This document shows positions 23,009 to 33,524 of a stretch of DNA of 52,889 nt, one piece after another. The notes beneath the pieces were generated by a model that was not told where the DNA came from, did not search any database, and was given only the letters and a program-made list of their open reading frames with translations. Each line of letters begins with the position of its first letter. Within the stretch, counting starts at the first letter, position 1. Source of the DNA: Bacteroidota bacterium (GTDB lineage: Bacteria > Bacteroidota > Bacteroidia > UKL13-3); assembly GCA_947507965.1 (NCBI GenBank), contig CANNQU010000015.1, positions 1-52,889 of the forward strand. The letters are read 5' to 3'. The translations under genes were made by a program, and so were the position numbers.

Positions 23009-23593
23009 ATGTTTTTAGAACCACGAAAAGCCGGACCTAAAGGATGGATAGAAGTTATCTGTGGATCGATGTTTTCAGGTAAAACGGAAGAACTCATTCG
23101 CCGTCTTAAACGCGCCCAGTATGCGAATTTGAAAGTCGAAATCTTTAAACCGGCACTTGATGTTCGGTACGATCAAGAACAGATTGTTTCTCACGACGCA
23201 AACAGTATCAAATCAACCCCTATAAACTCTTCTTCGAACTTGTTACTCATCTCCGCCAATGTTGATATTGTAGGTATTGATGAAGCTCAGTTTTTTGATC
23301 AGGGTTTGCCCGAGGTTTGTGAAATTCTAGCCAATAAAGGAATACGAGTAATTATTGCAGGCTTGGATATGGATTTTATGGGAAACCCATTCGGACCAAT
23401 GCCAGCTTTGCTTTCAAAGGCGGAATTTGTTACCAAAGTACACGCCATTTGTATGCGGTGTGGCGACTTTGCAACCCATTCTTTTCGGTTGGTAGAAAGC
23501 GAAATTACCGTACTCATAGGTGAAAAAGAAAGCTATGAACCTCGGTGCCGGAGCTGTTTTAATATAGGAATGAACGAAAGAAACGTAGTTTAA
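23009..23593 (+). CDS. tdk: Thymidine kinase (type II)
   Basis: Phosphorylates thymidine for salvage. The 194-aa protein has the P-loop GSMFSGKTE at residues 19-27, the DEAQFFD segment with the catalytic Glu, [18 protein letters not shown], the lid, and two zinc-binding pairs (CMRCGD and CRSC). Length and order match TK1-type enzymes. The glucosaminidase gene follows after 46 bases. Confidence 0.97.
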
Positions 23594-23639
23594 AAGAAGA
23601 TATAGTCGCTCGCTTTTCGGGAAGGCATTTTCTAATGAT

Positions 23640-24131
23640 ATGATTTATTCTAATACCATAAAATGGAGGTTATTGAAACAGTATTTACCTAAAGTACTTT
23701 TTTTTATCTCTTTTTTTGCTTTTCCCCAGAATAAAATCTATGCCCAAACAACTTCTACCAGAACCTTGCTTGATACCGTTTACGAATACCTCATTGCCCA
23801 GGAAATAAAACACCCTGATATTGTTTTACGACAGATTATTGTTGAAACGGGCTGGCTCAAATCACCCTATTTAATGACCAAACACAACCTTTTTGCCTTT
23901 AGAAATAGCAAGGGTTATATGAGCTTCCCTACTTGGCAGCATTCGGTGGAATTCTATAAAAAATGGCAGTCAACCTATTATCTGATGGAGAAGGAGGACT
24001 ATTACACCTTTTTAACCCGTATCAAATATGCCTCCTCACCTACCTATGCGGCATATCTTAAAAAAATTCAGCTACCTCAAAAATTCACACAACCAAAGGC
24101 ATTATTCGAAATGCCATCGCCCGAGCATTGA
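23640..24131 (+). CDS. Exported glucosaminidase-domain protein (peptidoglycan hydrolase)
   Basis: A 163-aa GH73-like N-acetylglucosaminidase. A signal or anchor segment (LPKVLFFISFFAFPQNKIYAQ, residues 16-36) precedes the domain. LRQIIVETGWLKSPYLMTKHNLFAF contains the catalytic Glu (E69) in the ETGW context, and a later YAAYLKKI segment is typical. Cell-wall turnover is likely. It is followed by 264 bases without a gene, in which I found only AT-rich sequence and two isolated AACCTCG stretches without pairing partners. Confidence 0.82.
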   Translation: MIYSNTIKWRLLKQYLPKVLFFISFFAFPQNKIYAQTTSTRTLLDTVYEYLIAQEIKHPDIVLRQIIVETGWLKSPYLMTKHNLFAFRNSKGYMSFPTWQHSVEFYKKWQSTYYLMEKEDYYTFLTRIKYASSPTYAAYLKKIQLPQKFTQPKALFEMPSPEH

Positions 24132-24395
24132 GTTCCTTATCGTCGTTTCGGGTCTTCCAAATTAATGTACTTAATGCACTACGAAAGGAAACTTAAAACC
24201 AATAGATGTTTAAAAATAGGCATTTTAGAAGTTTGAAGATGCTATACTTTTTAGTTAATTTGTTTCTACATTTTCCTTCTTCATTTGGATTCTTGTTTCG
24301 AACCTCGCCAGCAGCACCAAGGGTTTAAATGAAACGTCTCTAAAATAAAAAGAAGGGAACCTCGTTACCAATTTCAAATAGAGAAAACCCAATTA

Positions 24396-25877
24396 ATGAT
24401 TTCAAATCTTGCAGATAAAATAAAAGAGAACCGCATAAAAAATGCGTTCTATATTCAAAAGGTTTTCTACACTTATGCTAGCCTAGAAGAACGGGCGTTA
24501 TCGGTTGCAGCCTATTTATCAGTGCATAACGTGGGAAAATCTCCCGTAGGAATTATTGGCTATGATGCCTTTGAAACGTATGCTGCAATTATTGGAACCA
24601 TACTGGCCGGAACCCCCTTTGTACCCATTCACCCATCGAATCCAAAGGAAAGAAACGCAAGTATTATTGAACAGGCTGAGATCCAAATGGTACTCTGTGC
24701 AACCCCTGAAAACAACGTGGGAAACTTAGTAAATACGAACCTCGTTAAGGTAATATTGGTCTCCGAAATAGCATCGGAGTTAAACCCGCCCATCGCTGCC
24801 ATCAAGCCCAATGAGGTTGCCTATATACTCTTTACTTCGGGCAGTACCGGTGTTCCCAAAGGCGTTCCGATATCCTATGGAAACTTATCTGCCTTCCTCG
24901 ATTCCTTTTTTTCTATGGGTTACGAGATTGATTCAACTGACCGTTTTTTACAAATGTTCGACATCACGTTCGACCTTTCCATCATGTCCTATCTCGCGCC
25001 TTTGCTTCGAGGTGCCTGTGTTTATACGGTTCCTTTTAACGCCGTTAAATATATGTACATCTATGAATTGTTGGAGGAGCAGAAGCTCACCTTTACTCTT
25101 ATGGTGCCATCCATTTTATCCTATCTGCGCCCTTATTTCCCTGAAATAGAGTTGCCTCATCTAAAATATTCTCTGTTTTGTGGTGAAGCCCTTTATGTGG
25201 ATATTGCAAAAGAATGGAAACAATGTTTACCCCTTGCGAAACTTCAAAATGTATATGGCCCTACCGAAGCCACCATATTTTGCCTATCCTACGATTGCCT
25301 TGAGAACATAAAAGAAAACAATGGAATGATATGCATCGGTAAGCCGATGAAAAACTGCATTACGCTTATTGTGGACGACAACCATGAACCCACCAACGGC
25401 AAGGGGGAACTTTGCTTAGGAGGCCAGCAGGTAACTTCAGGATATATTAAAAACGAGGAGAAAAATAGTGATTCCTTCTTTTACTATAATAACGAACGAT
25501 ATTATAGAACCGGTGACCTCACGTTACAAGATGCTGATGGTGATATAATGTATGCCGGGAGAACTGACTATCAGGTAAAAGTAATGGGTGGCTTTAGGGT
25601 GGAATTAAATGAAATTGAACACCATGCCAGGGTGTGCACGGGGTTGGCCGGGGTTGCTGCCGTGGCTGTTCCTAACCATATCGGGATCTCGCAAATATAT
25701 TTGTTTTTGGAAGCTTTTGACGACGATGATTCGGTAGTTTTTAACTATCTCAGGCAGCAAATGCCGGAATATATGATTCCTAGCGCAATTTTTTCGATAC
25801 CCCAATTTCCACTCAATGCGAATGGTAAAATTGATCGTAAGAAATTGGAAGAAATGACGATTCAACAACAACGATAA
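24396..25877 (+). CDS. DltA-like amino-acid adenylating enzyme (D-alanine-carrier-protein ligase type)
   Basis: Activates an amino acid as its adenylate and loads it on a carrier protein. The 493-aa protein has every adenylation core motif: FTSGSTGVPKG (146-156), YGPTEAT (287-293), YRTGDL (370-375), GRTDYQVKVMGGFRVELNEIE (from 388) and NANGKID with the catalytic Lys at 478. FDLSIM (192-197) corresponds to FDLSVM of DltA, whose Asp binds the amino group. FCGEA (261-265) keeps the Cys that in DltA lines the D-alanine pocket. No condensation or carrier domain is fused. First gene of the envelope-acylation operon; the GNAT starts one base after its stop. D-Ala is the leading substrate guess; Gly or another small amino acid is possible. 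Confidence 0.85.
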   Translation: MISNLADKIKENRIKNAFYIQKVFYTYASLEERALSVAAYLSVHNVGKSPVGIIGYDAFETYAAIIGTILAGTPFVPIHPSNPKERNASIIEQAEIQMVLCATPENNVGNLVNTNLVKVILVSEIASELNPPIAAIKPNEVAYILFTSGSTGVPKGVPISYGNLSAFLDSFFSMGYEIDSTDRFLQMFDITFDLSIMSYLAPLLRGACVYTVPFNAVKYMYIYELLEEQKLTFTLMVPSILSYLRPYFPEIELPHLKYSLFCGEALYVDIAKEWKQCLPLAKLQNVYGPTEATIFCLSYDCLENIKENNGMICIGKPMKNCITLIVDDNHEPTNGKGELCLGGQQVTSGYIKNEEKNSDSFFYYNNERYYRTGDLTLQDADGDIMYAGRTDYQVKVMGGFRVELNEIEHHARVCTGLAGVAAVAVPNHIGISQIYLFLEAFDDDDSVVFNYLRQQMPEYMIPSAIFSIPQFPLNANGKIDRKKLEEMTIQQQR

Positions 25878-26531
25878 ATGAATTTTATAATAAAAGAAGC
25901 GACCGAAGAAGACCTCCCATTTCTTGTTGAAGCGATAATCAACGCTGAAAGAAGTGGAACCCAGACCTTGAGTTATGAGAAACTTTTTGAGTTAGATGAG
26001 CAACAGGTAATAAATAACCTAAGTAAAATTCTGGCAGAAGACATAACCGGTCAAGAACTTTGTATAAGCGATTTTCTAATTGCATGGTTCGATGAGGAGA
26101 GGGCCGCCGCTATCTGCAGCTGGATTGAAGGTGAAGAAGGAAGCAGCGCCATTTTGAAGTCGAATGTATTAATGTTCGGCTTTGGTAAAGAGGCCTTCGC
26201 AAGAGTACTCCATAAAGCGGCCCTATTGGAACCGTTGAATATGACTAGAGAAGCGGGTGCACTTCAGTTGGAATCGGTATATGTAACCAACAAATATAGA
26301 GGCCAGGGGGTAGTAAACCTCCTTATTCTCGCCCATATAAACAAACAACAATCGAGAAAGCGAAGGCTAAAAAAAGTACAAATTATTCTGGCAAAAGACA
26401 ATGAGAATGCATTAAAAGCTTATATTAAGGCCGGGTTTGCTACCGTGTTGGAAAAATATCAAACAAATGCAGAAGTTTTGAAATATCTTCCCACGCAAAC
26501 GAAAATCCTGATGGAGAAAAGTATATCGTAA
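25878..26531 (+). CDS. GNAT-family N-acyltransferase
   Basis: A 217-aa GNAT that would transfer an acyl group from CoA (or another carrier) to an amine. Motif A is clear: LESVYVTNKYRGQGVVNLLI at residues 131-150, with the R-G-Q-G-V acetyl-CoA loop, and motif B follows (LAKDNENALKAYIKAGF). The acidic N-terminal half (20-90) is less typical. Its ATG directly follows the TAA of the DltA-like gene, so it belongs to the operon. A canonical dlt operon has no GNAT. It might N-acylate the amino acid to be exported or act on another part of the system; the sequence does not decide. Confidence 0.82.
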   Translation: MNFIIKEATEEDLPFLVEAIINAERSGTQTLSYEKLFELDEQQVINNLSKILAEDITGQELCISDFLIAWFDEERAAAICSWIEGEEGSSAILKSNVLMFGFGKEAFARVLHKAALLEPLNMTREAGALQLESVYVTNKYRGQGVVNLLILAHINKQQSRKRRLKKVQIILAKDNENALKAYIKAGFATVLEKYQTNAEVLKYLPTQTKILMEKSIS

Positions 26532-26561
26532 ACGATTATAAGTAACCCTAAATTAAAAAAC

Positions 26562-26804
26562 ATGACAGCAGAAGAAATAAAAGAGAAAACCAATAGAATA
26601 TTTAGAAAAGTTTTTAATGACGACTCTTTGGTTATCTATAACGAGATGACCGCTAATGAGGTTGAAAAATGGGACTCCCTCAACCACCTGGTAATGATAA
26701 CTACTATAGAGGAGGAGTTTGGAATCAAGATAAAACTAAAAGAACTAATCGCGATGAAAAATGTAGGTCATCTTTTAGAAACCATTGCATCGAAACAACC
26801 ATGA
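26562..26804 (+). CDS. Acyl carrier protein (DltC-like)
   Basis: A stand-alone 80-aa carrier protein. The phosphopantetheine site is S39 in EKWDSLNHL, followed by the usual helix (VMITTIEEEFGIKIKLKEL) and a second helix pair. It is the natural acceptor for the amino acid activated by the enzyme two genes upstream. Its stop overlaps the start of the next gene by four bases (ATGA), a sign of translational coupling. It is not the fatty-acid AcpP: the site is WDSLNHL instead of DSLD, which is common in envelope-modification carriers. Confidence 0.88.
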   Translation: MTAEEIKEKTNRIFRKVFNDDSLVIYNEMTANEVEKWDSLNHLVMITTIEEEFGIKIKLKELIAMKNVGHLLETIASKQP

Positions 26805-28267
26805 AAAAATATGGATTTCAGGCTTTAATGATCCTTGTATTGCTTGATTTAGCCTTCGTGTTAATGGCAGCAGTAAACCCTAAGGTAAAATTATGGGGTA
26901 ACGAAGAGCACAGTGTAAATTTTCATTTCTTCAGCCTTCAAAATATGTTTTCCAGCGACACTACTTTAGTTTCGAATTTAAAAATAGATTTATTGGCCGA
27001 CAACCTGATTACGAATGACACGTTAAAAATTTACAAACTCAAAAACAATGCATTACTCGATTCTGCTTTTTTAGCACTACCCAATGACACCCTCAAAGAC
27101 ACTTCCTTTAACTGCATTATAAACCCAAATCATGACGGTGTTTTAGCTCTTGACAATTTTTTTAAAGCCTTAATTGACGAACGTAATTTGAAGCTAATAC
27201 GTATTGCACATTATGGCGATTCGCAACTGGAGGGTGATCGGATTACCTCTGAAATAAGAAAAAATATACAAGCAAAATTTGGAGGCTCCGGAACCGGGTA
27301 TATCCCCATTGACGACTTGGCTAGTTGTGCCAGTTATAGCAGAGAAAACTCCGATGGCTGGATTCGATATAATGTATTTAACAACAAATTTAAAAAGCAC
27401 AATTCGTACGGTATCAGTGGCAATACATTTCGTTTTTCAAGTGAGGAAGATGAATCGGGTAACACCCATAGCGCAACCGTTTCCTATGCTTTATCCAAGG
27501 GTGTTTCGTATCAAAAAATGACCTTGCTCTATGGCCGCGCTCCGAATGGCTTCACGGTAAAATGCTTTAACACGTCAAACAACAGTTTATTGTGTACCAT
27601 GAGCATACCTGCCACTGAATCTACCGGCCTAACAACGCTAAAATTAACATCGATTCCTTCGAATTTTAGACTTGAATTTACGTCAAGCAACGGCCCCGAC
27701 CTCTATGGCATTCAACTGGATAGTTATACCGGAATAACCATTGATAATTATGCTATCAGGGGACATTCGGGCGATGGACTTTTGCTTATCAATCAGAATT
27801 TCCTTTCGAAACAACTAAGAGAAACAAACACACGACTAATTATTTTTGAATTCGGCAATAATATGGTGCCGTATCTGAAATCGGAGAAGCAGTGCGAAAA
27901 ATATGAAGACCTCTTTTATAAACTCTTTAAGAAATTCAAAGAGGCTGCGCCAGAGGCAAGTGTTTTAGTTATAGGCAATGGCGACATGGGCTATCGGGCG
28001 GGTGGAGTGGCACAATCGTACAAGTATGTGAGAGGGTTAAACACCGTACTAAAAAATGCAGCGCTAAAGTCAAACAGCGCCTTTTGGAATTTACTTGATA
28101 ATATGGGTGGCGACAACTCCATTGTGATATGGAATAAAAAAGGGTTAGCTACCCTCGATGGGCATCTTACTCCGAAAGGTCAAAAGATCATGTCGAATCT
28201 AATATTTAAAGCTATTATGGTGGAATATAATAGCTTCGTTTTAAGAAATTTTTATACAAAAAAATAA
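26801..28267 (+). CDS. Membrane-anchored SGNH-fold protein (DltD/PatB-like role proposed)
   Basis: The 488-aa product starts at the ATG overlapping the carrier-protein stop. One N-terminal hydrophobic segment (residues 7-25) should anchor it in the inner membrane with the rest in the periplasm. The SGNH elements are visible: HYGDSQLEGDR with nucleophile S141, EFGNNM in the third block, and LDGHLTPKG near 452-460 supplying the Asp/His pair. A central beta-rich insertion (about 190-320) carries KMTLLYGRAPNGF. Such proteins work with MBOAT partners to place or remove acyl groups on envelope polymers. Acyltransferase versus esterase activity cannot be told apart from sequence. Confidence 0.75.
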   Translation: MKKYGFQALMILVLLDLAFVLMAAVNPKVKLWGNEEHSVNFHFFSLQNMFSSDTTLVSNLKIDLLADNLITNDTLKIYKLKNNALLDSAFLALPNDTLKDTSFNCIINPNHDGVLALDNFFKALIDERNLKLIRIAHYGDSQLEGDRITSEIRKNIQAKFGGSGTGYIPIDDLASCASYSRENSDGWIRYNVFNNKFKKHNSYGISGNTFRFSSEEDESGNTHSATVSYALSKGVSYQKMTLLYGRAPNGFTVKCFNTSNNSLLCTMSIPATESTGLTTLKLTSIPSNFRLEFTSSNGPDLYGIQLDSYTGITIDNYAIRGHSGDGLLLINQNFLSKQLRETNTRLIIFEFGNNMVPYLKSEKQCEKYEDLFYKLFKKFKEAAPEASVLVIGNGDMGYRAGGVAQSYKYVRGLNTVLKNAALKSNSAFWNLLDNMGGDNSIVIWNKKGLATLDGHLTPKGQKIMSNLIFKAIMVEYNSFVLRNFYTKK

Positions 28268-28331
28268 CAACCCATAATTTCCGAGATAGACGAAGGCATC
28301 CATCATTGGCAAGAAGAAAGAATAGCGTAAT

Positions 28332-30089
28332 ATGAGAAAATTAGCAGGTTTCCGTTTAATAATTATAGTACTTGCCTTATCTGCGGCATTCTCAGGCTTA
28401 TCACAAAGCAACAAGATAACGCCAAAAGACTCTGCCTACATAAAAAGTTCGATCCAATACAATAAATATTATCCTTTCATCGACTACAAAAACAATTTTG
28501 TGGAATGGTCAGACACCCTAGCAATAAATCACTTTTATGAATCTCTGAAAAATTCTGGAGAAAAAAAAGTACGTGTGCTTCATATCGGAGACTCCCATGT
28601 TCAAGCTGATATATTCACAGGCTATATTCGTGACCAAATTCAAAATATATTTGGTGCAGGAGGACGTGGCTTTATTTTCCCTTATGCTGCTGCTGGCACC
28701 CATTCGGCTTACGACTACCGCTCGTATTCCACTGGAAACTGGAATGGACTACGAAACATTCAGAACGAAGAATTACACGATATGGGTATAAGTGGGGCCA
28801 CCGTATGGACCGCTGATCCGAATGCTTCACTTCGATTTGTTTTTCAATATGAAACCTTAAAACCTTCCTTCCGTAAAGTAAAAATATGGTGCAAAAAAGG
28901 AGACGATGCTTTTGATCTTATCGTTCGTTATAGTTCCCTAGAAGAGGAGATTTTTGTAAAAACGAATACCGATAGCAACTTGTCGTATGTCAGCTTCTTA
29001 ATACCTGCAGCATCTGAGACTTTTGAAATCTCGATGTTTGCTTCCGACTCTTTACAAACTAATTTTGAATGTTATGGCGTTGAATTTGAAACCGACGAAG
29101 ACCACGGTATAGAATACAACAGTGTGGGAATTAACGGGGCTGGTTTCAACCATTTACTTCACGAAAATTTATTCGTAAAACAAATAAAAGATTTGAAACC
29201 CGACTTGGTGATTGTTGATATGGGAGCTAACGATTACTACCTGGGAAGTCTCGACTGGAATAGTTTTGAAACCAACCTCAACAAAATAGTGGATGAAATA
29301 AGAGAGGCCTCAGCTGAAACATCGATTATCTTATCGTGCTCACAGGATATCTATCGGAGGGGAATCAATGTAGTAGGAACACAGAATCACGCACAAATCA
29401 TAAAAAAAGTTGCCTATGAAAAAAGATGTGCCTATTATAACTATTTCAAAGTGGCCGGAGGGCAGTACTCCATGTATCAATGGCGTAAATATGGCCTCGC
29501 CAATAAAGACTTTGTGCATCTCGGTGCTGCTGGATATTATGTCAAAGGATCGCTTATTTTAAATGGGATATTAAATTCCTATGTTAAATACCTTGGCTCG
29601 AACAATCGCTCACTCAACACGGAAGATGGGGTTAACTATAATCTTACAGATTCGATATTTACCTACCGCGATTCTATTTTGGTAGAAACCTATTCGATAG
29701 AAAATGACAATACCAAGTTAAAAACTTTTTACAAAGTAAAGAAGGGAGAAACGGTAACCTCAATAGCTAAAAAATTCAAGGTTGCCGTAATAGAAATTAA
29801 AGATTGGAACGAGCTTAGTAGTAATTACTTGAAATATGGACAGTTATTGATTTTGTATGTAGATAAGCCCAAACCGGCTACCGTAAATAAGAATTCGGCT
29901 GCAATTAAATCATCCACTTCCGTTATTAAACACAAAGTAAAATACGGTGACACCATGTGGGGTATAGCTACCCATTATGGGGTTACCATGACACAGATAA
30001 GAGCCTGGAATGCCATGAAGAACAATACCATTAAGCCGGGAAAAATTTTAATCATAAAAGTACCTATTAAAAATAAAAAACACGGATGA
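28332..30089 (+). CDS. Exported SGNH-fold protein with two C-terminal LysM repeats
   Basis: The 585-aa product has a signal peptide (LIIIVLALSAAFSGLSQ), an SGNH domain (HIGDSHVQAD with S88; DMGANDYYLG at 296-305; KDFVHLG with D393 and H396) with a beta insertion at about 150-255, and two LysM repeats (about 467-511, FYKVKKGETVTSIAKKF; about 533-577, KHKVKYGDTMWGIATHYG). LysM binds N-acetylglucosamine polymers, so the active domain should be held on peptidoglycan. It resembles the preceding SGNH protein in layout, suggesting duplication with division of labour. Its stop overlaps the MBOAT start by four bases. Confidence 0.82.
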   Translation: MRKLAGFRLIIIVLALSAAFSGLSQSNKITPKDSAYIKSSIQYNKYYPFIDYKNNFVEWSDTLAINHFYESLKNSGEKKVRVLHIGDSHVQADIFTGYIRDQIQNIFGAGGRGFIFPYAAAGTHSAYDYRSYSTGNWNGLRNIQNEELHDMGISGATVWTADPNASLRFVFQYETLKPSFRKVKIWCKKGDDAFDLIVRYSSLEEEIFVKTNTDSNLSYVSFLIPAASETFEISMFASDSLQTNFECYGVEFETDEDHGIEYNSVGINGAGFNHLLHENLFVKQIKDLKPDLVIVDMGANDYYLGSLDWNSFETNLNKIVDEIREASAETSIILSCSQDIYRRGINVVGTQNHAQIIKKVAYEKRCAYYNYFKVAGGQYSMYQWRKYGLANKDFVHLGAAGYYVKGSLILNGILNSYVKYLGSNNRSLNTEDGVNYNLTDSIFTYRDSILVETYSIENDNTKLKTFYKVKKGETVTSIAKKFKVAVIEIKDWNELSSNYLKYGQLLILYVDKPKPATVNKNSAAIKSSTSVIKHKVKYGDTMWGIATHYGVTMTQIRAWNAMKNNTIKPGKILIIKVPIKNKKHG

Positions 30090-31570
30090 TGAATACTTTT
30101 ATTGAATATTTTAAATACTCCAAAGACCATCTCCTGGTCTATAACTCCGTGGCTTTCTTCGGCTTATTTACTTTTTTTTATTTGCTCTTTCTTCTGGCCT
30201 CAAAAAAAATACCTGTCCGGAATATTCTTTTGTTGGCATTCAGTCTCTTCTTTTATTACCGGTTAAGTGGGCTCTTTGTTGTTTTGATGTGTTTTATAGC
30301 TGCATCCGATTACGTAATTGGAAGAATAATACTTGCCACAAAAAATGAACGAGTGAAAGTCAGATTTCTTATGCTCTCCATTTTCATTAGTGTTGGAAGT
30401 TTACTTTACTTTAAATATACAGGATTTATTCTCGATTTGATAAATGCAATTTTCCAAACAGAAATAAAAGCACCGGCCTTCTCTTTGTTAATGCCCATTG
30501 GAATTTCTTTTTATGTTTTTAAAACCCTCTCTTATATCTTCGATTGTTATAATGAGGTGATTGAAAAACCGGAGAAAAACTATCTCACTTATTTATTGTA
30601 TGTTTCCTTTTTCCCTAACATTCTAGCCGGTCCTATTGCCAAAGCGCGCCACCTACTACCACAGTTTAATTCGCCTACACTGATTACAAAGGATTCGATG
30701 AGTAGAGGATTTTTCTTGATCATGCTTGGCATCGTTAAAAAATACCTTATAGCCGATTTTCTATGGAACAACTTCATTGAACGAGTTTTCAACGCTCCTA
30801 CCCTCTTCTCCGGATTGGAAAACTGGATAGCCATGTATATGGCTGCTATCCAGTTCTATTATGATTTTTCGGGTTATACCGACCTGGTTCTGGGCATTTC
30901 GTTGTTATTAGGATTCGAAATACAAAACAACTTCAATCGACCTTTTTTAGCTCAAAACGTAACCGACTTATGGAGGCGTTGGCATATCACACTCTCCACA
31001 TGGCTTAGCGAATATGTTTTTACGCCCCTCAATTATTCTTTAAGGAAATACAAAAAGCCAGGAGCCGTTTTTGCGAGCATTCTAACCTTTGTTATTTCAG
31101 GCCTTTGGCATGGCCCTAAACTAACCTACGTGCTCTGGGGAACCTTGCACGGAATGGCAATTGGCTGGGATGTAGCATCTCAGAACTGGCGTACCTATTG
31201 GAAAAAATTGATTCCCGCTTCGGGGTATAAATTCATCAGCATTTTTATAACATTTCATTTCATTGCTTTTACCATTGTACTTTTCGACGCAAAGGATATT
31301 CGTTACGCTTTCGATATGTATTCGATGATGTTCACCAAAACAGCGGTATCGTTATTTGGCCAGTGGCTTGGCGTTTATTGGAGTGAGTTCCTCATTTTTG
31401 CAGGGGCCTTGTTTATTCATTTTACACCTTCTTCATTTAAAGAAACACTCATCAAACGATTTCGCAATTTACATCTCCTGGCGAAAGCACTACTAATTTT
31501 CTTGGTTATTATTTTTGTTTTCCAATTTTATAGTGCCGAAACTCAGAATTTCATTTACTTGAAATTTTAA
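30086..31570 (+). CDS. MBOAT-family acyl exporter/transferase (AlgI/DltB/PatA type)
   Basis: A 494-aa polytopic membrane O-acyltransferase that passes an acyl group from a cytoplasmic carrier to the periplasmic face. Motifs: PIGISFYVFKTLSYI (137-151), FFPNILAGPIAKA (174-186), FNRPFLAQNVTDLWRRWHITL (from 283) and the catalytic H342 in ISGLWHG. About a dozen hydrophobic segments. The protein ends ETQNFIYLKF; the final F-I-Y-x-x-F resembles the C-terminal motif of DltX, whose Tyr accepts D-alanine in Gram-positive systems. Here the motif would be fused to the MBOAT. Last gene of the operon, 84 bases before cmk, which has its own promoter. Confidence 0.9.
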   Translation: MMNTFIEYFKYSKDHLLVYNSVAFFGLFTFFYLLFLLASKKIPVRNILLLAFSLFFYYRLSGLFVVLMCFIAASDYVIGRIILATKNERVKVRFLMLSIFISVGSLLYFKYTGFILDLINAIFQTEIKAPAFSLLMPIGISFYVFKTLSYIFDCYNEVIEKPEKNYLTYLLYVSFFPNILAGPIAKARHLLPQFNSPTLITKDSMSRGFFLIMLGIVKKYLIADFLWNNFIERVFNAPTLFSGLENWIAMYMAAIQFYYDFSGYTDLVLGISLLLGFEIQNNFNRPFLAQNVTDLWRRWHITLSTWLSEYVFTPLNYSLRKYKKPGAVFASILTFVISGLWHGPKLTYVLWGTLHGMAIGWDVASQNWRTYWKKLIPASGYKFISIFITFHFIAFTIVLFDAKDIRYAFDMYSMMFTKTAVSLFGQWLGVYWSEFLIFAGALFIHFTPSSFKETLIKRFRNLHLLAKALLIFLVIIFVFQFYSAETQNFIYLKF

Positions 31571-31615
31571 AAGATTTACGCCCTATCTTAAAGTCAATTG
31601 TTTCCATAATCTTTA

Positions 31616-31645
31616 TTGTACCAATTCCATTTTTTTTTATCTTCG
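31616..31645 (+). promoter_or_regulatory. cmk promoter (TTG-N19-TATCTTCG)
   Basis: TTG at 31616-31618 and TATCTTCG at 31638-31645 are 19 bases apart, standard spacing; the -7 box has C for T at one position. The expected start lies within a few bases of the cmk start codon at 31655. Confidence 0.55.
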
Positions 31646-31654
31646 TAGCCAAAG

Positions 31655-32356
31655 TTGAAATCAATAATTATAGCAATCGACGGATTTTCGGGCTGTGGTA
31701 AAAGCACCTTAGCGAAGGCTATGGCGGCAAGCCTTAACTACCGCCACATCGACACGGGTGCTATGTATAGAGCCGTGACTCTCTACTTTTTGGATAACGA
31801 CGTTGATATCGAAAACCAAAATGAAATCGCAGCTGCACTAAAAAACATTACCATCGAATTTAAACACAATCCGGAAACAAATCAAACCGATACTTTTTTA
31901 AACGGTGAAGACCGTGAAATAGCCATCCGCTCGTTACGGGTTGCTAATTTTGTAAGTCCGGTGAGTACGATTAGTTCGGTTCGTTCCTTTCTTGTTAAAC
32001 AGCAACAAAAAATGAATGACCACAGAGCCATTGTAATGGATGGAAGAGACATTGGCACCGTGGTATTTCCAGACGCTGAATTGAAAATATTCATGGTAGC
32101 TAATGATGAAATACGGATTCAGAGAAGGCTGGAAGAAATCCAATTGAAAGGACAGCTAGGAAACTACGATGAAGTAGCTCATAACCTGAAATCGCGCGAT
32201 CTAATAGATTCAACTCGCCTCGATAGTCCACTCAGAAAAGCTGACGATGCCATTGAAATTGATAACTCGATGCTTACCCGAGAGGAACAATTCAATATGG
32301 TGTATTTACTGGCCATGGAAAAAATTAATGAGAAAAGCAACTTGGAAAGTATTTAG
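31655..32356 (+). CDS. cmk: Cytidylate kinase (TTG start)
   Basis: Phosphorylates CMP and dCMP. The 233-aa protein shows IIIAIDGFSGCGKSTLAKAM (P-loop 10-18), YRHIDTGAMYRAVTLY, VMDGRDIGTVVFPDA and RRLEEIQLKGQ in the expected order. The start must be TTG at 31655: a TAG lies three codons upstream in frame, and the first ATG falls after the P-loop. The promoter immediately ahead supports this. A weak start together with a short leader may limit expression. Confidence 0.94.
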   Translation: MKSIIIAIDGFSGCGKSTLAKAMAASLNYRHIDTGAMYRAVTLYFLDNDVDIENQNEIAAALKNITIEFKHNPETNQTDTFLNGEDREIAIRSLRVANFVSPVSTISSVRSFLVKQQQKMNDHRAIVMDGRDIGTVVFPDAELKIFMVANDEIRIQRRLEEIQLKGQLGNYDEVAHNLKSRDLIDSTRLDSPLRKADDAIEIDNSMLTREEQFNMVYLLAMEKINEKSNLESI

Positions 32357-32474
32357 AAGCTCGAATTAAAATTACAGCATAAAGCTACTCTTTGTTAAAA
32401 AGAAAACAACCGGTAAAACATTCGTGTTACGGCGCTTTTACCCGAATCATTTCGCATTCTTTCTTGTTTGCCCT

Positions 32475-32482
32475 TATCTTTG
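32475..32482 (+). promoter_or_regulatory. -7 box of thiL
   Basis: TATCTTTG ends four bases before the ATG at 32487 and thus rules out the longer frame that starts upstream at 32424. Confidence 0.55.
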
Positions 32483-32486
32483 CTTC

Positions 32487-33524
32487 ATGTTTGAAAATAA
32501 TTCACGTACAGAAATCAATGAACTGGGCGAATTTGGTTTAATTAAGAAACTCACAGAAAACATCATACTAAAACACCAATCATCCATCCTGGGGGTGGGC
32601 GACGACTGTGCTGTAATTTCCGCAGAAGGTAGTTTTCGTAAGGTTATTACAACCGACATGCTAGTTGAAGGGGTTCATTTTGACCTAAGTTACACTCCCT
32701 TAAAACATTTAGGATATAAAGCCGTGGTGGCCAACTTAAGCGATATCTTTGCTATGAATGCCATACCCGAACAAATTACCGTGAGTGTGGCGATGAGTAA
32801 CCGTTTTAGTGTGGAAGCCTTGGAAGAATTATATGAAGGTATTTACTTAGCTTGCGATAAGTACAATATAGATTTAATAGGAGGTGATACCAGTAACAGC
32901 AAACAGAATTTAATACTCAGCATAACCGCTATTGGGGTTGCGCATGAAAATGAGTTGGTTTACCGAAACGGGGCAAAAGAAAACGATTTGATTTGTGTTA
33001 CCGGCGACCTCGGAGCAGCCTATATGGGTTTACAAATATTAGAACGAGAGAAGCGTATTTTTATTGAAAATCCTAATGTACAGCCCGATATTCAACACTA
33101 CGATTTTATCATCGGTAAGCAGCTAAAACCTGAATGTGCAAATAAAGAACTAGCCGCTCTCAAGCTCGCCGGGATTAAGCCAACAAGTCTTATTGATATA
33201 AGTGATGGGCTGGCATCTGAACTATTTCATCTCGCCGAACAATCGGGCGTAGGTGTTATTATCTATGAAGAAAAATTACCCATTGATCAACAAACCTTCG
33301 ATACAGCAATAGAACTAAATCTAAACCCTCCTACCGTTGCTTTTAGTGGAGGCGAAGATTACGAGCTCTTGTTCACCATCAAACAAGATGACTTTGAGAA
33401 AATTAAAGAAATAAAAGATATCCATGTTATTGGATATTGTACCCCGGCTGCCGAAGGGATGTTTAGTTACACCAAAAGTGGCACCAAATTAAGTCTGGAA
33501 AAACAAGGATATAAAGCATTCTAA
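32487..33524 (+). CDS. thiL: Thiamine-monophosphate kinase
   Basis: Makes thiamine diphosphate from the monophosphate. The 345-aa product contains GVGDDCAVISA, TTDMLVEGVHFDLSYTPLKHLGYKAVVANLSDI (family core, in order), DLIGGDTS, LIDISDGLASELFHLAEQSGVG and FSGGEDYELLFT. No TPP riboswitch fold was seen in the short upstream stretch. Its TAA overlaps the TAG of the convergent pabB by three bases. Confidence 0.95.
   Translation: MFENNSRTEINELGEFGLIKKLTENIILKHQSSILGVGDDCAVISAEGSFRKVITTDMLVEGVHFDLSYTPLKHLGYKAVVANLSDIFAMNAIPEQITVSVAMSNRFSVEALEELYEGIYLACDKYNIDLIGGDTSNSKQNLILSITAIGVAHENELVYRNGAKENDLICVTGDLGAAYMGLQILEREKRIFIENPNVQPDIQHYDFIIGKQLKPECANKELAALKLAGIKPTSLIDISDGLASELFHLAEQSGVGVIIYEEKLPIDQQTFDTAIELNLNPPTVAFSGGEDYELLFTIKQDDFEKIKEIKDIHVIGYCTPAAEGMFSYTKSGTKLSLEKQGYKAF

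Follow-up and report, generated by a model that had tools for sequence, protein, structure and literature searches.

The Dlt system (DltXABCD) carries out the D-alanylation of teichoic acids in Gram-positive bacteria, and PatA/PatB carry out the O-acetylation of peptidoglycan in Gram-negative bacteria. In the published view, PatA-type MBOATs take their acyl group from acyl-coenzyme A (acyl-CoA) and use no carrier protein. The FXYXXF acyl-shuttle motif is found on DltX in the Dlt system and on the MBOAT itself in PatA (PMC12148441). Here we describe a six-gene operon at positions 24396-31570 (plus strand) of a 52,889-nucleotide stretch, hereafter the window (contig CANNQU010000015.1 of assembly GCA_947507965.1), from a freshwater Bacteroidota bacterium. 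Judged by sequence and comparison, which are the evidence throughout, the operon fairly probably encodes a carrier-fed MBOAT-SGNH transferase that brings its own shuttle, a Dlt/Pat hybrid in which the first half of the Dlt system of Gram-positives is most likely joined to the second half of Gram-negative wall acetylation.

The operon encodes, in order, a DltA-like amino-acid adenylating enzyme (493 residues, 24396..25877), a GNAT acetyltransferase-fold protein (217 residues, 25878..26531), an acyl/aminoacyl carrier protein (80 residues, 26562..26804), the membrane-anchored periplasmic SGNH protein SGNH1 (488 residues, 26801..28267), the exported SGNH protein SGNH2 with two C-terminal LysM domains (585 residues, 28332..30089) and an MBOAT (494 residues, 30086..31570). 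The six open reading frames lie on one strand with intergenic distances of 0, 30, -4, 64 and -4 bases. A program-made frame places the start of SGNH1 at 26669, and its true start is likely 26801, giving a four-base overlap with the carrier stop. An earlier reading of this DNA from the letters alone (the sequence-only reading) had described the same six packed plus-strand genes under the same gene labels, and the reading frames and our Pfam and NCBIfam searches, from which the domain labels are taken, agree with it; that reading had missed the pair of LysM domains and the FIYLKF end of the MBOAT. Its description of a complete Dlt/Pat-like operon needs correction, as DltX is lacking and the MBOAT belongs to the PatA type, with the shuttle built in. 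None of the intergenic gaps, the longest being 64 bases, could hold a separate DltX microprotein.

The MBOAT (Pfam MBOAT, 2.5e-24) scores 174.9 bits against the DltB model LTA_dltB (TIGR04091), under the cut-off of 375, and its closest solved relative is DltB, both by sequence (1e-21) and by fold (template-modelling score 0.74 on the target, for an AlphaFold model with a predicted local distance difference test score, pLDDT, of 88). It ends in FIYLKF (31550..31567, containing Tyr491), which fits FXYXXF, and 23 relatives that share the carrier-type segment described below all keep His300, His342 and Tyr491. This segment, between two Trp-His motifs (30983..31111), has a spacing of 42 residues, lacks LGG[NS] and overlaps the region of DltB helix HC, which DltC contacts (PMC11035591). 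We surveyed the segment in 69 MBOATs, 31 encoded beside a carrier gene and 38 unlinked. All 31 carrier-linked MBOATs have the 42-residue spacing without LGG[NS], and the unlinked ones mostly combine LGG with a spacing of 40 (31 of 38) or 37 (three). The remaining four have the carrier-type segment and all fall within the clade of the window MBOAT, and in two cases the genome has a strong carrier match at another place (G110, 107 bits; G101, 85 bits). The most useful single contrast is a sister pair in which L048 has a carrier gene and no LGG, whereas L140 has LGG and no carrier (support of 100 in the Shimodaira-Hasegawa-like approximate likelihood ratio test, SH-aLRT, the measure used for the MBOAT tree, which has no bootstrap). 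Two loci outside this set are consistent with it as regards LGG. The Neisseria gonorrhoeae MBOAT (L230) has LGG, a spacing of 40 and the C-terminus FIYANF, which is the published NgPatA peptide (PMC12148441). An LGG-less MBOAT also occurs outside Bacteroidota, on a Metabacillus plasmid with the order carrier, AMP-binding protein, MBOAT, hypothetical protein (L235:1048-5376). The signature emerged from the data themselves and was extended afterwards; its Fisher value of 1e-15 ignores relatedness and is not to be read as a probability. Taken together, the MBOAT signatures independently suggest carrier feeding, and we regard the enzyme as very probably carrier-fed; the presence or absence of LGG[NS] in the helix-HC segment may predict whether CoA or a carrier is the acyl source.

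The sequence-only reading was to be abandoned if the six genes were not kept together elsewhere, and they are kept together. All six occur in identical order and at the identical site in two genus-mates (L042 and L043, ~62-74% identity), which were also the sole matches when genome contigs were scanned with SGNH2. The site lies between an upstream gene that we take, from its sequence, to be a thymidine kinase, and a presumed cytidylate kinase gene (cmk) 84 bases downstream of the operon. Compared among five species of the genus, this interval (23009-33524 in the window) has three different contents: three species have the six-gene operon there, the fourth (L141) has a plain SGNH1-SGNH2-MBOAT set, divergently oriented and with an MBOAT spacing of 40, and the fifth (L228) has a single unrelated gene. 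The interval is thus an exchange site in this genus, and the six genes behave as a unit. Shortly before the operon lies a gene with a glucosaminidase domain (23640-24131); both operon-bearing genus-mates retain it, and none was seen at the site in the two operon-less ones.

Beyond the genus, the adenylating enzyme, GNAT and carrier genes occur with a more distant MBOAT in four further genomes (L044, L045, L046 and L047), and in L048 they are convergent with the MBOAT gene. In two genomes from another family of the phylum (G373 and G459), the adenylating enzyme and GNAT are encoded on one contig (L135, L134) and SGNH1, carrier and MBOAT on a second (L136, L174). A GNAT profile search of 395 genomes of the phylum found three, including the source genome, so the amino-acid version appears rare and patchy; a search of plasmids with GNAT gave no match. 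Linkage of carrier, MBOAT and SGNH genes was found in many further families, and SGNH1-SGNH2-MBOAT sets without carrier genes are common in Bacteroidota. The idea that all SGNH1-SGNH2-MBOAT modules form one system was dropped, because the tree placed the window clade apart.

Searching the phylum with the MBOAT also revealed operons with the order SGNH1, AMP-ligase, carrier, MBOAT in several families (L178-L203 and L205-L216, e.g. L208:5417-10245), and these are widespread in other Bacteroidota families. All three of the ligases scanned group with fatty-acyl-AMP ligases, and eleven aligned ligases share the motifs of that group (HDMGL, YAMAE) and lack the amino-acid ones; the ligase-type operon is apparently a fatty-acyl counterpart of the window system. 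The assumption that all carrier-linked relatives load amino acids was given up, as most carry a fatty-acyl-AMP-ligase-like enzyme. In family f77, six genomes encode the ligase, and it is absent only from G373 and G459, which are exactly the f77 genomes with the adenylating enzyme and GNAT. From this swap the loading enzyme appears interchangeable around a constant carrier, MBOAT and SGNH set, which is what a carrier-fed transferase predicts. We found no paper on the SGNH1-fatty-acyl-AMP-ligase-carrier-MBOAT operon in the open-access literature searched.

The adenylating enzyme (AMP-binding, 3.7e-62) scores below the cut-offs of both DltA models (TIGR01734, 293.9 bits, cut-off 559.9; NF003417, 299.6 bits, cut-off 476) and, at 302.2 bits, also under that of the general amino-acid adenylation model. 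Motif matching places ten pocket positions, whose code DLMLLCVIFK is common to the window, L042, L044, L045 and L135b; L046 departs from it at one site. Outside the pocket these proteins are 41-66% identical to that of the window, the overall figure being 44-66% for loci with the identical code, and the constancy of the pocket despite this low identity suggests one small α-amino acid as a fixed substrate. The pocket retains the Asp and Lys typical of α-amino-acid enzymes, and its other positions are hydrophobic, so that alanine or glycine would be expected over a charged or hydroxylated residue. Cys262 of the FCGE motif (25179..25181) is the counterpart by motif of Cys269 in Bacillus cereus DltA, which sits at the base of the pocket for D-alanine (PMC4176424). 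In alignments to solved structures linear gramicidin synthase predominated, and DltA positions were matched by motif and literature rather than by residue-level alignment. When checked for D-alanine specificity, the enzyme presents a small-residue pocket with the FCGE Cys, the other motif-placed positions differing from DltA. A capsule locus of Segatella copri (L146:6938-10836) encodes a DltA-like enzyme 39% identical to that of the window, and its other genes include those for a carrier, an alanine racemase and a protein of the AAC(3) family. It looks like a locus for D-alanine addition to a capsule sugar, and by analogy it favours alanine for this enzyme group without proving it for the window operon. 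On the pocket residues, a small amino acid of the alanine/glycine class is the likely substrate, with D-alanine as our leading guess.

The GNAT protein (Pfam GNAT, 6e-5) gives a confident AlphaFold model (pLDDT 91.3) with a plain GNAT fold (VIA-align Z 17.8 to 4m85). Fold searches return generic N-acetyltransferases only, which does not fix the substrate, and the RG.G loop is present in most members, its last Gly/Ala position varying. In ten loci the GNAT gene comes right after that of the adenylating enzyme, GNAT and carrier are joined in a single open frame of 299 residues in L046, and GNAT is missing from the annotated carrier-MBOAT operons with a fatty-acyl-AMP ligase. From this pattern we infer that GNAT targets the amine of the amino acid while it is bound to the carrier; the chances that it acylates that amine seem to us about even, and it may alternatively transfer the aminoacyl group to another amine. 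The carrier is slightly under the PP-binding cut-off (0.001), and its attachment residue Ser39 (26676-26678) is present and invariant in the alignment. One operon (L134:8518-14848) combines an adenylating enzyme and a carrier with an FkbH-like protein and four GNAT genes in tandem copies, with no MBOAT adjacent.

SGNH1 (GDSL match; GDSQ, FGNNM and a C-terminal His block) has one N-terminal hydrophobic stretch, and its Asp140-Ser141 and His455 are invariant across carrier-linked and unlinked relatives. SGNH2 (Lipase_GDSL_2, 1.1e-12) also has an N-terminal hydrophobic stretch, and its two LysM domains (Pfam LysM in two stretches, 2.7e-28; approximately residues 467-576, 29730..30059) recur on SGNH2 of the relatives L042, L213, L137, L139 and L048. 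These domains favour peptidoglycan as the acceptor, an assignment that we consider evenly balanced. Acceptors may vary among hosts, since L047 adjoins polysaccharide genes.

Gene content, linkage, catalytic and shuttle residues, the fixed pocket and the MBOAT signature come from sequence and comparison. They allow a provisional scheme that proposes a substrate, a role for GNAT, an acceptor and each of the catalytic steps. In the first step, the adenylating enzyme would load a small α-amino acid (alanine/glycine class) onto the carrier. GNAT would then modify the amino acid on the carrier, acylation of the free amine being the likeliest reaction. In the third step, the carrier would dock at the cytoplasmic face of the MBOAT, which would use His342 to shift the acyl group to Tyr491 of FIYLKF. 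Finally, the periplasmic SGNH proteins would take the group from the tyrosine to their own serine and esterify an envelope polymer, peptidoglycan being the likeliest given the LysM domains of SGNH2. The core of the sequence-only reading, an aminoacyl system, is supported by the conserved linkage and the MBOAT signature; N-acylation, an aside in that reading, becomes a serious possibility as GNAT belongs to the conserved core, and among the acceptors it named (peptidoglycan, lipopolysaccharide or a surface glycan) the LysM domains favour the first. The fullest form of the proposal is that a Gram-negative envelope, probably its peptidoglycan, bears N-acyl amino acids in ester linkage, the products of a third MBOAT-SGNH class, carrier-fed like Dlt, self-shuttling like PatA and equipped with an amine-capping GNAT; this combination we put forward tentatively, as rather less than evenly likely.

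Several observations weigh against this proposal. The signature lacks phylogenetic independence: one clade contains most of the carrier-linked MBOATs, and the MBOAT tree requires just four changes of the carrier label. The Metabacillus MBOAT has a spacing of 40, so that spacing alone is not a universal mark. L140, with an MBOAT unlinked to a carrier, has LysM as well; LysM was for that reason dropped as a mark of the carrier type, and it tells where the group goes, not which group. The pocket has Phe at position 331, presumably unlike DltA, and this would fit glycine equally. The L134 operon suggests that an adenylating enzyme-GNAT-carrier module can serve another purpose.

The alternative that survives best is a Dlt-like free aminoacylation, in which a plain D-alanyl or glycyl ester would place positive charge on the polymer and GNAT would be an editing enzyme or unrelated. 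The DltA-like enzyme with its Cys269-type motif and DltB as the closest solved MBOAT are in keeping with it, whereas the position of GNAT right after the adenylating enzyme in ten loci, its fusion to the carrier in one and its absence from the annotated ligase-type operons are not, and we judge it unlikely. Quite improbable is the view that two unrelated modules are combined, the adenylating enzyme, GNAT and carrier making a cytoplasmic amide (e.g. an N-acylated amino sugar) and SGNH1, SGNH2 and the MBOAT forming an ordinary acetyl-CoA-dependent O-acetyltransferase: it draws on the commonness of carrier-less SGNH1-SGNH2-MBOAT sets in Bacteroidota, the adenylating enzyme-carrier-AAC(3) set of the S. 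copri capsule locus and the polysaccharide genes beside L047, but the window MBOAT has no LGG and its clade is distinct from that of the plain SGNH1-SGNH2-MBOAT sets, the carrier adjoins the MBOAT without GNAT in many families, and the loading enzymes are swapped in f77.

A Pfam scan found no condensation domain among the operon proteins, and the adenylating enzyme is single-domain, unlike a nonribosomal peptide synthetase. A promoter and terminator scan gave promoters at chance level and nothing decisive. We found neither the gene set nor a carrier-fed MBOAT with its own shuttle described in the open-access literature searched; most subscription papers and all preprints lay outside this search, and an earlier description is possible. 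The carrier-fed transferase with its own shuttle proposed here, together with its relatives in many Bacteroidota families, looks like a sequence-level counter-example to the carrier-less view of PatA-type MBOATs. If it is true, a large set of envelope modifications that lack annotation becomes directly testable, among them the aminoacyl and N-acyl-aminoacyl esters of Gram-negative bacteria.

Among known systems, the S. copri locus shares with the window an adenylating enzyme, a carrier and an N-acetyltransferase-family gene, but it has no adjacent MBOAT or SGNH gene and encodes AAC(3) where the window has GNAT. The dra locus of Bordetella pertussis adds D-alanine to an outer-membrane component in a Gram-negative host (PMC4448142), and our comparison with it concerns this D-alanylation. 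The window operon resembles Dlt in having an amino-acid adenylating enzyme, a carrier linked to an MBOAT and an SGNH protein, in the predicted hand-over of the acyl group via the tyrosine of FXYXXF, and in DltB being the closest solved MBOAT structure. Unlike Dlt, it lacks DltX and has the shuttle on the C-terminus of the MBOAT itself, it adds GNAT, a second SGNH protein and LysM domains, its host is Gram-negative, and its proteins score under the Dlt cut-offs. With PatA/PatB it shares the C-terminal FXYXXF shuttle of the MBOAT and adjacent SGNH partners, whereas PatA uses acetyl-CoA and has LGG in the segment, and the window operon has its own adenylating enzyme and carrier and an MBOAT without LGG. 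The ligase-type operons of Bacteroidota share the carrier next to the MBOAT, the 42-residue LGG-less segment, FXYXXF and a homologous SGNH1, and they differ in having a fatty-acyl-AMP-ligase-like loader, no GNAT and a predicted fatty acyl rather than aminoacyl group.

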